Assembly (NCBI RefSeq): GCF_002742645.2
Contig: NZ_CP033875.1
Span: forward strand, 3,202,001-3,266,000
Length of the DNA: 64,000 nt
Direction of reading: 5' to 3'
Source: Caulobacter sp. FWC26
Lineage (GTDB): Bacteria > Pseudomonadota > Alphaproteobacteria > Caulobacterales > Caulobacteraceae
Position numbers and translations under genes: made by a program. Under the pieces are notes generated by a model, which saw nothing but the letters and a program-made list of their open reading frames with translations, was not told where the DNA came from and searched no databases. This document shows positions 4,387 through 45,771 of the stretch, piece after piece. Positions within the stretch are counted from its first letter, which is position 1; each line of letters starts with the position of its first letter.

Positions 4387-7300
4387 CACGCCTTCCCCCA
4401 ACCCCCGCCGCCCGGCGTTTCGATGACAATCACATCGCCCGGCGTCACCGCTACGAGGTCGGTTGCGCCCAGGGCTTGAACCTGACCATCGGCGCGCTCG
4501 ACCCGCGCAGATCCCAGAGCCCCGGCCGCCCCACCCTGCAGCCCGAACGGCGCCACCCGGCGGCGGTTCGACAACAGGGTTGCGGTCATGGGTTCGCGGA
4601 AGCCGATCTTGCGAACCACGCCGTCACCGCCCCGGTTCGCGCCCGCCCCACCCGAGCCGCGCCGGATCGAAAAGGCCTGGACCAGCACGGGATAGCGCGC
4701 TTCCAAAACCTCGGGATCGGTCAGGCGGCTATTGGTCATGTGGGTCTGAACCGCATCGGTCCCGACGAAGTCAGGCCCTGCGCCCGAGCCGCCGCAAATG
4801 GTCTCGTAGTACTGTCGGCGATCATCGCCGAACGTGAAATTATTCATCGTGCCTTGCGCCGCCGCCATGACGCCCAGGGCGCCATAGAGGGCGTCGACCA
4901 CCACCTGGCTGGTCTCGACATTGCCCGCCACCACCGCCGCCGGATAGCGCGGGCGCAGCATCGAGCCCTCGGGGATCACCAGCTCGACCGGCCGCAGGCA
5001 GCCGTCGTTCATCGGGATTTCGTCGTCGACCAGCGTGCGGAAGACATAGAGCGCCGCCGCCCGGCAGATCGAGGCCGGGGCGTTGAAGTTGGTCGGGACC
5101 TGATCGCTGGTGCCCGTAAAGTCGACGCGCGCGGTGCGGGCGGCTTGGTCGACCGTGATCGCGACCTTCACCACCGAGCCGTCATCCAGTTCATAGGCGA
5201 AGGCGCCGCTCTTCATCGTCGCCAGCACGCGGCGGACGGCCTCTTCGGCGTTGTCTTGGACATGCGCCATGTAGGCTTCAACCACGTCCATGCCGAATTC
5301 GTCGACCATCCCGGTCAGGGCCTCGGCGCCCCGCGCGCAGGCCGCGATCTGGGCCTTTAGGTCGCCGATGTTCTGATCCGGATTGCGCGCCGGCCAGCGG
5401 CCCGAAGCCAACAGCGCCCGCGTCTCGGCCTCACGGAAGCGGCCGCCTTCGACCAGCAGGAAGTTCTCGATCAGAACCCCCTCTTCCTCGACGGTGCGGC
5501 TGCTGGGCGGCATGGAGCCCGGCGTGATCCCGCCGATATCGCCCTGGTGACCGCGTGCGGCGACGTAGAAGCGGAGCGCGCCCTCCGCGCCAAACACCGG
5601 CATGACAACGGTCACATCCGGCAGGTGCGTGCCCCCATTATAGGGCGCGTTCAGCATATAGACGTCGCCGGGCAGCATGCCTCGACCATCGTCCCGCCGC
5701 GCCTCACGGATCGCCCGCACGCTGTCGCCCATCGAGCCCAGGTGCACGGGCATGTGCGGGGCGTTGGCGATCAGGTTTCCATCGCGATCGAACAGCGCGC
5801 ACGAGAAGTCGAGGCGCTCCTTGATGTTCACCGAATAGGCGGTGTTCTGCAGCGCGAAACCCATCTCCTCGGCCACGGCCATGAAGAGGTTGTTGAACAC
5901 CTCCAGCATCACCGGATCGGCATCCGTGCCGATGGCCTTGCGGCTCGGCAGGGCGACGACCCGCTCAAGCACCAGGTTCAGATGAGCATCGACGGTCGCG
6001 CGCCAGCCGGGTTCGACCACGGTGGTGCCCGTAGCTTCGCGGATGATCGCGGGCCCTGGGACCTCGGCGCCGACCGCCAGCGCTTCACGGTCGAACACCG
6101 GCGTCAGACGGACCTCGCCAGCCATCCGGACCTCGACCGTCGCCAGGGCCACCGGCTCGGCGCAGCGAGCCTCGCCGCCAAAGCTAGGACGCGCCCCGGA
6201 GTTCGGGTGACCGATCGCCTCTACCGACAGGGTTTCGACCACCAGTGGCGTCGTCGGCGAGGTGAAGCCAAAGCGACGCTGGTGGAGCTCTTCGAAGGTC
6301 TCGCGGACGCGGTCATCAAGCAGCGTGACCAGCGGCGTGTCCGTGCCAGCGTACTTGACCCGCAGGCTGGCCACGGTCTCCAGCGACGCCAGCGGAACAT
6401 CCTGCGCGCGCAGCGCGGCTTCCGCCTCGGCGGCGAGGCGTCCGGCGCGCTCGGCCAGATCATCGGCCTCGTCCAGAGGTCGCTCAACCGTCTCCTCGCG
6501 GATCAGCCGCAGGTCCGCCAGCCCCATGCCGTAGGCCGAAAGCACCCCGGCGAAGGGGTGGATCATGACCTTGGTCATGCCCAAGGCGTCGGCCACCAGG
6601 CATGCGTGCTGCCCGCCCGCCCCACCGAAACAGGCCAGGACATAGCGGGTGACGTCATAGCCCCGCTGGATCGAGATCTGTCGCACGGCCTTGGCCATGT
6701 TCTCGACGGCGATGGTGACGAAGCCCTCGGCGACCTCCTGCGGGGTCATCACGCGGCTGGTCGCCGTAGCAATTTGCGCCGCCAGCGCCTCGAAACCGCG
6801 CGTGACAGCCTCGACGTCGAGCGGCTGGTCGGCGCTCGGCCCAAACACCTTCGGGAAGAACTCGGGCCGCAGCTTGCCCAGCATGACGTTGCAGTCGGTG
6901 ACGGTCAGCGGCCCGCCCCGGCGATAGGCCGCCGGCCCCGGAACCGCGCCGGCCGAGGCCGGCCCTACCCGCAGCCGCGCGCCGTCGAAGCTGCAGATCG
7001 AACCGCCGCCCGCCGCCACGGTGTGGATGTTCATCATTGGCGCGCGCATCCGCACGCCCGCCACGACGGTCTCGAAAGCCCGCTCGTACTCGCCGGCATA
7101 GTGGCAGACATCGGTCGAGGTGCCGCCCATGTCGAAACCGATCACCCGGTCGAACCCCGCCTCGGCCGCCGTCCGCGCCATGCCGACCACGCCCCCCGCC
7201 GGTCCGGAGAGGATGGCGTCCTTGCCCCGGAAAGCCCGGGCATCGGTCAGACCACCGTTCGACTGCATGAACAGCAGCCGCGTGTCGTGGCCCAGCGCGC

Positions 7301-43228: not shown

Positions 43229-44062
43229 TCACAACCGAGCCGCGTGGAACGCTACGTGATCGGCGATGAAGCTCGTGATGAAGAAGTAGCTGTGGTCGTA
43301 GCTCTCTTGCCGGCGAACCGTGACCTTGCGGCCGGCCTTGGCGGCGGCGGCTTCGATCAGCTCGGGCTTCAGCTGGCTCTCCAGGAAATTGTCCGAGAGG
43401 CCCTGGTCGATCAGGATGTCGTCGAAGCTCGTCCCCTTGCCGTCCTCGATCAGGGCGCAGGCGTCGTAGGGGCGCCAGGCGGCGCGGTCCGGGCCGAGAT
43501 AAGCGCTCAGCGCCTTGTCGCCCCACGGGCAGTTCAGCGGCGAGACGATCGGCGAGAACGCGCTGACCGACTTGAAGAGCTCGGGGTGCTTCAGCGCGAT
43601 GGTGAGGGCGCCATGGCCGCCCATCGAGTGCCCGAAGACGCCCTTGCGCGCCCCGTCCAGCGGGAAGGCGCTCTCAACCGCCGCCAAGAGGTCGCCGGTG
43701 ACGTAGGAGTGCATCATGAAATGCGGCGCCCACGGCGCCTGGGTGGCGTCGACATAGAAGCCCGCCCCCTGCCCCAAGTCATAGGCCGGATCGTCGGCGA
43801 CACCTTCGCCGCGCGGTGAAGTGTCCGGCGCGACAATGGCGATCCCGTGCTGGGCGGCGTGGGCGTAGACCCCCGACTTCACCGTGAAATTGTCCTCGGT
43901 GCAGGTCAGGCCCGACAGCCAGACGAGATAAGGGAACGGCCCCTCGCCATCCGGCGTCCACACCGTGAACTTCATCGGCGTGCCGGTGCTGGTGCTGGCG
44001 TGCTTGCAGTAACGCAGCGTTCCGCCATGGACGCGGTGGGTGGAGAGGGTTTCGACGGTCAT
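43229..44062 (-). CDS. fghA: S-formylglutathione hydrolase
   Basis: A 277-residue alpha/beta hydrolase of the esterase D type. The nucleophile elbow GHSMGG holds Ser146; the Asp (DQGLSDNF region near 222) and His (QESYDHSYFF near 255) complete the triad. The N-terminus KFTVWTPDGEGPFPYLVWLSGLTC includes the oxyanion and glutathione-recognition loop. It hydrolyses S-formylglutathione to formate and glutathione, the second step after AdhC. The ATG at 44062 overlaps the stop codon of the upstream unknown gene (TGATG), so translation is coupled; adhC is the first gene of the three. Confidence 0.95.
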   Translation of the reverse strand: MTVETLSTHRVHGGTLRYCKHASTSTGTPMKFTVWTPDGEGPFPYLVWLSGLTCTEDNFTVKSGVYAHAAQHGIAIVAPDTSPRGEGVADDPAYDLGQGAGFYVDATQAPWAPHFMMHSYVTGDLLAAVESAFPLDGARKGVFGHSMGGHGALTIALKHPELFKSVSAFSPIVSPLNCPWGDKALSAYLGPDRAAWRPYDACALIEDGKGTSFDDILIDQGLSDNFLESQLKPELIEAAAAKAGRKVTVRRQESYDHSYFFITSFIADHVAFHAARL

Positions 44063-44661
44063 CAGTGCTTTCCAATCACCCGAACAAACTTCTGATTCCA
44101 AAAAATGTAGAGCGCCTTGAGACACTTGATGTCCAACCGCGCGAATATCTCACCTGGTCGAGGATCAAAAAAACTCACCCATTGAGAGGCATCGGAGTTT
44201 GGATAGATCAACAATGAAAGGTCCCGTGCAGCGTAGGCTTTGGAGCACTTTTCATTGATAGCTTTTTGCATCTGCCCCAGCAGGTCAGCGCGCGCCCGCT
44301 CCAAGCCGGCTTCAGAGTAATTTCCGATCGGGTGGGTACCTTCAGCCTGCTTCGCGAAGCGCTTTCCATCCTTCGATGGGCAAGCTTCCGTCACCTCCAA
44401 GAGCATTTCGCCACGCCCATCCAAGATCGTGAAATCTGGCCGATCGCCATGGATTACGCTTACCGGAAACTCCAATGCTCCAGCCTCGACGAGATTGAAA
44501 ATGAGCCGTCGAGCTAAGTAGGCTTCGCTTGCGATAGTGGTCCGCCGGCCAAGGCCTGTTCGCGGACCATTGACCAAGCCCACCTCCCCAAATTGCCGTT
44601 CTAGATCAGCAGGCGAAGTAGCCGCAGTAGCCACCAACCTCGCCTGCGGATCAAACGCCAC
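44062..44661 (-). CDS. Unknown protein between adhC and fghA, PD-(D/E)xK-like motif, AT-rich
   Basis: A 199-residue protein with no recognised family. The sequence RPDFTILDGRGEMLLEVTEAC (residues about 74-94, written here as RPDFTILD and LLEVTEA) resembles the PD...(D/E)xK nuclease pattern, but the last motif position is Thr rather than Lys, so that is only a weak hint. The codon use and base composition are clearly lower in GC (roughly half A+T by eye) than in flanking genes, a sign of transfer. The start codon directly follows the adhC stop and its stop overlaps the fghA start, so it is embedded in the formaldehyde operon. Confidence 0.7.
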   Translation of the reverse strand: MAFDPQARLVATAATSPADLERQFGEVGLVNGPRTGLGRRTTIASEAYLARRLIFNLVEAGALEFPVSVIHGDRPDFTILDGRGEMLLEVTEACPSKDGKRFAKQAEGTHPIGNYSEAGLERARADLLGQMQKAINEKCSKAYAARDLSLLIYPNSDASQWVSFFDPRPGEIFARLDIKCLKALYIFWNQKFVRVIGKH

Positions 44662-45771
44662 CTAGAACGTCACCACGGTCCGGATGCTCTCACCGGCATG
44701 CATGAGGTCAAACGCCTTGTTGATCTCTTCGAGCGGCAGGACGTGGGTGATCATCGGGTCGATCTGGATCTTCCCGTCCATGTACCAGTCGACGATCTTG
44801 GGCGTGTCGGTGCGGCCGCGCGCGCCGCCGAAGGCGGTGCCGCGCCACACCCGGCCGGTGACCAGTTGGAACGGGCGGGTGGAGATCTCCTTCCCCGCCT
44901 CGGCCACGCCGATGATGATGCTCTCGCCCCAGCCGCGATGACAGGCTTCCAGCGCCGTGCGCATGACGCCGGTGTTGCCGGTGGCGTCGAAGGTGTAGTC
45001 GGCGCCGCCGTCGGTCAGGGCCACCAGATGCGCGACGAGGTCGCCCGAGACATCCTTCGGGTTGACGAAGTGGGTCATGCCGAACTTGCGGCCCCATTCC
45101 TCACGGTCCGGATTGATGTCGACGCCGACAATCATGTTGGCGCCGACCAGCTTCAGACCCTGGATGACGTTCAGGCCGATGCCGCCCAAGCCAAAGACGA
45201 TGCAGTTGGCGCCCGGCTCGACCTTGGCGGTGTTGGTCACCGCGCCTACGCCCGTCGTCACGCCGCAGCCGCAGTAGCAGGCGGTCTTGAACGGCGCGTC
45301 ACGACGGATCTTGGCGACCGCGATCTCGGGCAGGACCGTGTAGTTCGAGAAGGTCGAGCAGCCCATGTAGTGGTAGATCGGCTGGCCCTTGTAAGAGAAG
45401 CGGCTCGTGCCGTCGGGCATGAGCCCCTTGCCCTGGGTGGCGCGGATCGCCGTGCACAGGTTGGTCTTGCCCGACAGGCAGCTTTTGCACTGGCGGCATT
45501 CAGGCGTGTAGAGCGGGATCACGTGGTCGCCGACCGCCACGCTGGTCACGCCAGCCCCGACCTCGACCACCACGCCCGCGCCCTCGTGGCCCAGGATCGA
45601 GGGGAAGATGCCTTCGCTGTCGAAGCCGTCCAGGGTGTAGGCGTCGGTATGGCAGACGCCGGTCGCCTTGATCTCGACCATCACCTCGCCGGCCTTGGGC
45701 CCTTCAAGGTCGACCTCGACGATCTCCAGCGGCTTCTTGGGTTCGAACGCGACAGCGGCGCGGGTCTTCAT
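44662..45771 (-). CDS. adhC: S-(hydroxymethyl)glutathione dehydrogenase / class III alcohol dehydrogenase
   Basis: A 369-residue zinc-dependent dehydrogenase. The catalytic zinc ligands are Cys40 (GVCHTDAYT), His62-Glu63 (GHEGAG) and Cys near 170 ([10 protein letters not shown]), and the structural zinc uses Cys92, 95, 98 and 106 ([16 protein letters not shown]). The Rossmann segment [13 protein letters not shown] follows. It oxidises the glutathione adduct of formaldehyde with NAD+ to S-formylglutathione, which FghA then hydrolyses. ATG 45771 follows GGGGAG. It is divergent from a LysR regulator and is the first gene of a three-gene operon. Confidence 0.96.

Follow-up and report, generated by a model that had tools for sequence, protein, structure and literature searches.

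An optional AT-rich gene between adhC and fghA of Caulobacter encodes a predicted PD-(D/E)xK-like nuclease and may be a free-standing homing endonuclease gene

A stretch of 64,000 nucleotides (nt) from Caulobacter sp. FWC26 (contig NZ_CP033875.1, positions 3,202,001 to 3,266,000; hereafter the window) carries, between two genes of formaldehyde detoxification, a gene for a protein of 199 amino acids (aa) which is here called X. The three genes are contiguous and lie on the minus strand: adhC (44662..45771), encoding S-(hydroxymethyl)glutathione dehydrogenase (TIGR02818, E 1.5e-183), is followed by X (44062..44661) and then by fghA (43229..44062), encoding S-formylglutathione hydrolase (TIGR02821, E 4e-117). 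The start of adhC was placed at 45771 (ATGAAGACCCGC), inside a longer, mechanically called open reading frame (ORF). The GTG start of X abuts the adhC stop codon TAG (44662-44664) with zero spacer, and its own TGA (44062-44064) shares one base with the fghA ATG (44060-44062) in a TGATG overlap. An earlier reading of the letters alone (the sequence-only reading) had placed X at this position, starting at the adhC stop and overlapping fghA; its coordinates and strand were confirmed, as was a precise insertion which left both flanks coupled. The sharp difference in composition which it had also described holds as well. The G+C (GC) content of X is 0.54 versus 0.66-0.67 in the flanks, and at third codon positions (GC3) it is 0.575, with 0.92 in adhC and 0.90 in fghA; this is the minimum among 50 mechanically chosen window ORFs of at least 150 aa (median 0.84, standard deviation 0.10). 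Comparison of X with its homologue in Caulobacter sp. UNC358MFTsu5.1 (G034, record L003) over 197 aligned codons gave proportions of nonsynonymous and synonymous differences (pN and pS) of 0.22 and 0.79, and X behaves as a genuine protein-coding gene under purifying selection.

The distribution of X was addressed in draws of genomes which overlap, each sampling a larger group and each counting the genome of the window. The genomes positive for X or a relative numbered 2 out of 101 relatives, 3 out of 299 in the family, 7 out of 398 in the order, 8 out of 385 in the class and, at a stricter limit of 1e-5, 1 out of 398 in the phylum, this one being the window's own; two of the 105 genomes in the family of another host, Hyphomonadaceae UBA5336 (G906), also carry it. 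The third family-level match (G309; 45 aa, E 6.8e-4) lies in a 57-aa ORF, under the length limits of the rechecks, and was dropped, as were two weak matches in G342 and G677 (E 2e-4 and 1e-3). A phage origin of X was rejected, there being no match in phage records (two queries) or in viral contigs (two scans). Eight solid loci in eight genomes are thus available at the level of the order, seven from the order search plus G034, and X stands directly after adhC in five of them and after a VWA/CoxE gene in three, and a one-off insertion of X is not supported. The view of X as a feature of this strain's formaldehyde operon is likewise not supported, since homologues stand behind adhC in another Caulobacter and in two further families.

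At each of these two sites the upstream gene is constant and the downstream gene varies. At the adhC site the distance from the adhC stop to the X start ranges from a 1-nt overlap to 3 nt. The next gene is fghA in the window and in G034 and is not fghA in Hyphomonadaceae UBA5336 (G906), Parvularcula mediterranea (G750) and Hyphomonadaceae BRH_c29 (G944), so that fghA, a VOC-like gene (label by eye) or another gene is found downstream. At the second site, X of G744 begins 35 nt past the stop of a VWA gene (PF05762) and is followed by a trypsin-like gene; in G792 and G840, where the VWA gene was recognised by similarity, the X start overlaps the VWA stop by one base and a methyltransferase gene (label by eye) lies downstream. 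The class search produced five further solid matches. In two loci from different families of the class (L052 and L053) a DUF29-fused form of X follows gltD at 3 and 8 nt; the X stop overlaps the gltB start in L052, and in L053 the gltB start was read by eye. L051 adjoins an uppP-like gene (label by eye), and L054 and L055 adjoin other genes. Formaldehyde detoxification is not what the X clades share, because other clades lie behind VWA/CoxE genes and gltD.

Both main sites are empty in relatives. Of 41 Caulobacter genomes, 37 gave matches to fghA (38 in all), and the junctions were read in the best 30 loci, of which two (L007 and L020) contain X. In the 28 loci without X, adhC and fghA are 2-12 nt apart in seven and 132-223 nt apart in 17 (adhC stop counted), the insert is longer in three, and in one the stretch includes no adhC. 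The five genomes closest by fghA (G008, G031, G003, G001 and G033; 91-95% identity) all lack X. The VWA slot was read in 30 loci from 58 genomes with a VWA gene, plus the G744 locus. Here the VWA gene and the trypsin-like gene are 38, 49 and 55 nt apart in three X-less loci versus 663 nt in G744. The methyltransferase gene comes directly after the VWA gene in G736 and 957 nt after it in L082, both X-less, and in the X-carrying G792 and G840 the distance is 631 and 661 nt; the remaining X-less loci, including G780 of the same genus as G792, show neither neighbour. At the adhC and VWA slots alike, X is therefore an optional gene between two conserved genes, with empty counterparts in relatives.

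The slot just past the adhC stop attracts inserts. In locus L115 (G815, within the family of G906) it is filled by an unrelated AT-rich gene of 199 aa (898-1497 of that locus, minus strand; GC 0.40, GC3 0.35), the GTG of which abuts the adhC TAG and the TAA of which abuts the fghA ATG; it contains a stretch RNEFIH which by eye is HEPN-like (RxxxxH). Two further observations on this slot may be recorded. In L016 (G027) it holds a GC-rich gene of 115 aa, secreted-looking and by eye TonB C-terminal-like, which overlaps both the adhC stop and the fghA start. The 17 junctions measuring 132-223 nt (L008-L012, L014, L015, L021-L025, L027, L029-L031 and L033) all fold far more stably than base shuffles (z -4.0 to -13.4) and contain palindromic elements, of several sequence kinds across strains.

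Acquisition of X, as claimed by the sequence-only reading, is borne out by the five X-less closest relatives and by its composition, which is AT-rich in all eight hosts (GC3 0.43-0.62). Of the two signs which that reading would have taken for an old gene, homologues in the same operon of distant genera do occur and matched composition does not. In a tree of 59 AdhC proteins, made up of the best-matching loci and the other X-carrying loci and so not a random sample, the five X-carrying genomes need five changes (mean 4.9 with shuffled labels), three of which are forced by well-supported branches; in a tree of 31 VWA proteins the three X-carrying genomes need two changes, both forced. In the tree of X itself the VWA-site members form one clade (SH-like approximate likelihood-ratio test, SH-aLRT, 98) and the adhC-site members fit on one side of a branch (98), many metagenome members without site information falling between the two. 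The clades of X follow the site, and the sites have been occupied in separate lineages. Between the window and G034 the synonymous codons of X are at saturation (ratio 0.96, shuffle P 0.29), while eight of nine other genes are below it (ratio 0.43-0.87, P at most 0.007) and the ninth is marginal (ratio 0.88, P 0.06). This shuffle-based ratio took the place of a plain comparison of synonymous divergence (dS; X saturated, adhC 0.30, fghA 0.44), discarded as misleading because a GC3 near 0.95 lowers the ceiling, and it supports acquisition of X more weakly than plain dS did. X is not saturated between G792 and G840 (ratio 0.86), and a single arrival in their common ancestor is therefore possible.

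For one of the hosts, G840, a candidate trace of the insertion event was seen: the VWA end is present twice, as RAMRELSR-stop before X and as GAMRELSR-stop after it. The two ends are equal at 19 of 30 bases, and the far copy lies 1 nt ahead of the next gene. Among 30,300 stop-ended octamers from all loci read, 43 match GAMRELSR at six or more of eight positions, namely 39 VWA gene ends and the G840 place itself as seen in four loci, and the best other octamer scores 5/8. From the sequences the doubled end is likely to be an insertion scar. Two VWA alleles seem to have met in G840, because a leftover that no longer codes would not retain the peptide with altered codons, and we infer that X arrived together with, or next to, a target-gene 3' end of foreign origin. 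Doubled ends of the upstream gene were sought at all eight loci, and nothing clear was seen in the other seven. The best repeat matches in the window and in G034 (score 13, reached in 5 of 300 shuffles, and score 17, reached in none of 300) are not scars, because they lie inside fghA coding sequence that is also present in X-less relatives; the score of 12 in L006 was reached by 10 of 300 shuffles.

X has no match among the models of Pfam, NCBIfam, PADLOC and PHROGs, so its assignment to a known family was rejected, in agreement with the sequence-only reading. When 72 aligned sequences were put to Pfam one by one, DUF29 was found in five and everything else was at E 0.024 or weaker. DUF29 (PF01724) is fused C-terminally in one clade of the family (P0078, P0079, P0080, P0082 and P0084), which includes the members behind gltD; the window's X, unlike that clade, lacks DUF29. 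Sequence searches of solved structures returned a single chance titin row for query A1 (E 0.97); query A3 picked up the DUF29 part (3fcn at E 8.5e-6), its other four rows being at E 0.12 or above. The AlphaFold model of X is confident (predicted local distance difference test, pLDDT, 94.5) and has the alpha-beta-beta-beta-alpha-beta core order of PD-(D/E)xK nucleases; in the structure comparison of this model the missing of other folds carries no weight as evidence. Across the 72 sequences, the window's included, P66, P75, D76, E89, T91 and K138 are invariant, and E46 in the first core helix (residues 42-59; codon at 44524..44526, minus strand, as for all codons given here) is conserved in at least 90%. 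The acidic pair D...E on adjacent strands is present, in the PD motif P75-D76 (44434..44439) and in E89 of E89-V90-T91 (44389..44397); the lysine two residues past the second acid is missing, with T91 in its place, so that E-x-T replaces E-x-K. K138 (44248..44250), where the long helix 120-139 ends, is a candidate substitute for the motif lysine. Variants of PD-(D/E)xK enzymes with other residues or a displaced lysine exist, and because the motif lysine is replaced by T91 we term X PD-(D/E)xK-like and do not file it as a member of the superfamily. The nuclease-like fold suspected in the sequence-only reading is upheld by the core order of the model; the motif, read there as a plain PD...ExE, is instead PD...ExT with a distant invariant lysine. 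Judged by the model, X probably belongs to an undescribed nuclease-like family, for which metal-dependent DNA cleavage is predicted. Among solved structures, PA4535 (PDB 1y0k; entry title: function unknown) has 13% identity to X and a Z in the tool's middling range. I-Ssp6803I is a bacterial, intron-encoded PD-(D/E)xK homing endonuclease; its structure (PDB 2ost) gave a weak Foldseek row against X (2ost_C, E 1.2, prob 0.16), its chain is shorter than X (138 residues), and the two show no sequence match.

The recurrence of the family at the same gaps between housekeeping genes of different bacteria suggests that X is mobile and seeks its site, and that it does not belong to the formaldehyde pathway. 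We tentatively propose, as the best of the explanations weighed here and quite possible, that X is an optional, horizontally mobile, single-gene PD-(D/E)xK-like nuclease which acts as a free-standing homing endonuclease. Such a gene would keep to one position at the adhC 3' end, where read-through from the host operon and stop-start coupling would bring about its expression; the nuclease would cleave alleles lacking X, within or close to the upstream gene's 3' end, and when the break is repaired from an X-carrying copy, X would be placed in the same junction. Overlaps would be found on both sides of X because only insertions which leave the downstream start codon usable would persist. Observed are the gene, its coupling, its composition in multiple hosts, the fidelity of each clade to its site, the empty sites, the scattered hosts and a conserved candidate active site; the fold on which the homing reading draws is that of the AlphaFold model, and cleavage of DNA by X, its target and a spread driven by cleavage are inferred. 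Weighing against the proposal is the X-less locus L101, where the trypsin-like gene lies 807 nt past the VWA gene even though X is absent. With rather more doubt, the proposal may be widened to an Alphaproteobacterial family of chromosomal free-standing PD-(D/E)xK-like homing endonucleases, each clade having one target 3' end (adhC, VWA/CoxE and perhaps gltD), with stop-start overlaps, possible doubled-end scars and an E-x-T site with a helix-borne lysine.

Free-standing endonuclease genes are described in PMC6083498 and PMC2988022 as optional genes which lie between two conserved genes and are able to cleave one of them; PMC2988022 reports for phage T4 that mobE relies on promoters located upstream of a neighbouring gene and that one-sided events with illegitimate repair occur. 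The layout of X resembles that of free-standing homing genes: the gene upstream stays the same and the one downstream changes, alleles without X exist, the hosts are scattered, the model has a nuclease-like fold and one locus, G840, shows what looks like a repair scar. The seg and mob genes of T-even phages and F-CphI of a cyanophage are like X optional between two conserved genes; they are phage enzymes with GIY-YIG, HNH or Endo VII motifs, whereas X is bacterial and chromosomal, PD-(D/E)xK-like, and a cleaving enzyme by prediction. In the open-access subset of the literature we found no publication which joins DUF29 and a nuclease, none on single-gene defence in operon hot spots, none on coupled inserted genes with homing and, in the literature on adhC, fghA, Caulobacter and formaldehyde, none on X by title; because the search covered this subset, the novelty of the X family is unproven.

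The main rival, in our estimate somewhat unlikely, is that X is cargo, a defence or abortive-infection nuclease of a single gene, and that it landed in a permissive insertion hot spot where the housekeeping gene in front, steadily expressed, would supply transcription and translation. The nuclease-like fold would suit an effector, the unrelated HEPN-like gene of G815 fills the adhC-fghA slot in the same abutting layout, and family members are carried by two conjugative Bradyrhizobium plasmids, one of them beside genes annotated as caspase-domain proteins. However, PADLOC gives no match for X, the plasmid member of L050 (scanned as 5923-6666), P0084, P0063 or the HEPN-like gene, which Pfam does not recognise either; no partner gene accompanies the eight chromosomal copies in the flanks that were read; and repeated return to one junction per clade is not to be expected of cargo.

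A good deal less probable is a passive spread, in which the 3' end of the upstream gene enters together with X by transformation or transduction and is joined through upstream homology on one side and illegitimately on the other, no cut being made by X itself. This does not by itself explain the repeated arrival of X or its nuclease-like fold, although it accounts both for an upstream neighbour that is constant beside a downstream one that varies and for the doubled VWA 3' end of G840, and adhC is well conserved (76-93% aa identity between X-carrying hosts and the window). The tracts would moreover need to be short, as the window adhC is native to its lineage: co-transfer of long adhC tracts with X was rejected because the window AdhC is 99.7% identical to that of X-less G008 and no foreign stretch was found in the window adhC DNA. 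The least probable explanation makes X an old functional partner of adhC and fghA (acting, for example, on formaldehyde-damaged nucleic acid) which was kept by selection and lost in most lineages, and such a formaldehyde function is unlikely: the purifying selection on X and the five members directly behind adhC in three families agree with it, but X is AT-rich and unmatched to the operon in each host read, it is patchy both among the relatives and in the family of G906, it is missing from the five closest relatives by fghA, fghA is not the next gene in three of the five adhC-site loci, and other clades behind VWA and gltD genes mean that X is not confined to the formaldehyde operon.

If X is a homing endonuclease gene, bacterial chromosomes would carry selfish nuclease genes which parasitise the gaps in housekeeping operons, like those of T4; this would account for some of the puzzling AT-rich orphan genes whose translational coupling is perfect, and would offer, in the laboratory genus Caulobacter, a directly testable enzyme with a defined candidate target in the 3' end of adhC. 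Should X be a defence gene, the adhC-fghA junction would be an insertion slot for single-gene effectors.

The two plasmid members, L050 (5923-6669, pNK6a) and L073 (pBq12S5), have upstream and downstream genes in common (90% and 83% identity), with an extra transposase in pNK6a; one of them is annotated as a syntaxin-like protein, and the L073 copy reads in two frames. A weak relative in L056 (2469-3275; IQVTE motif, E 2e-4) is fused to a nucleotidyltransferase-like domain and adjoins a HEPN-like gene (both labels by eye). In the window, the first 200 bases of fghA (43863-44062) are 99% identical to those of X-less G008 and later blocks are 74-98% identical; by this comparison the fghA end next to X may be a recombination tract.
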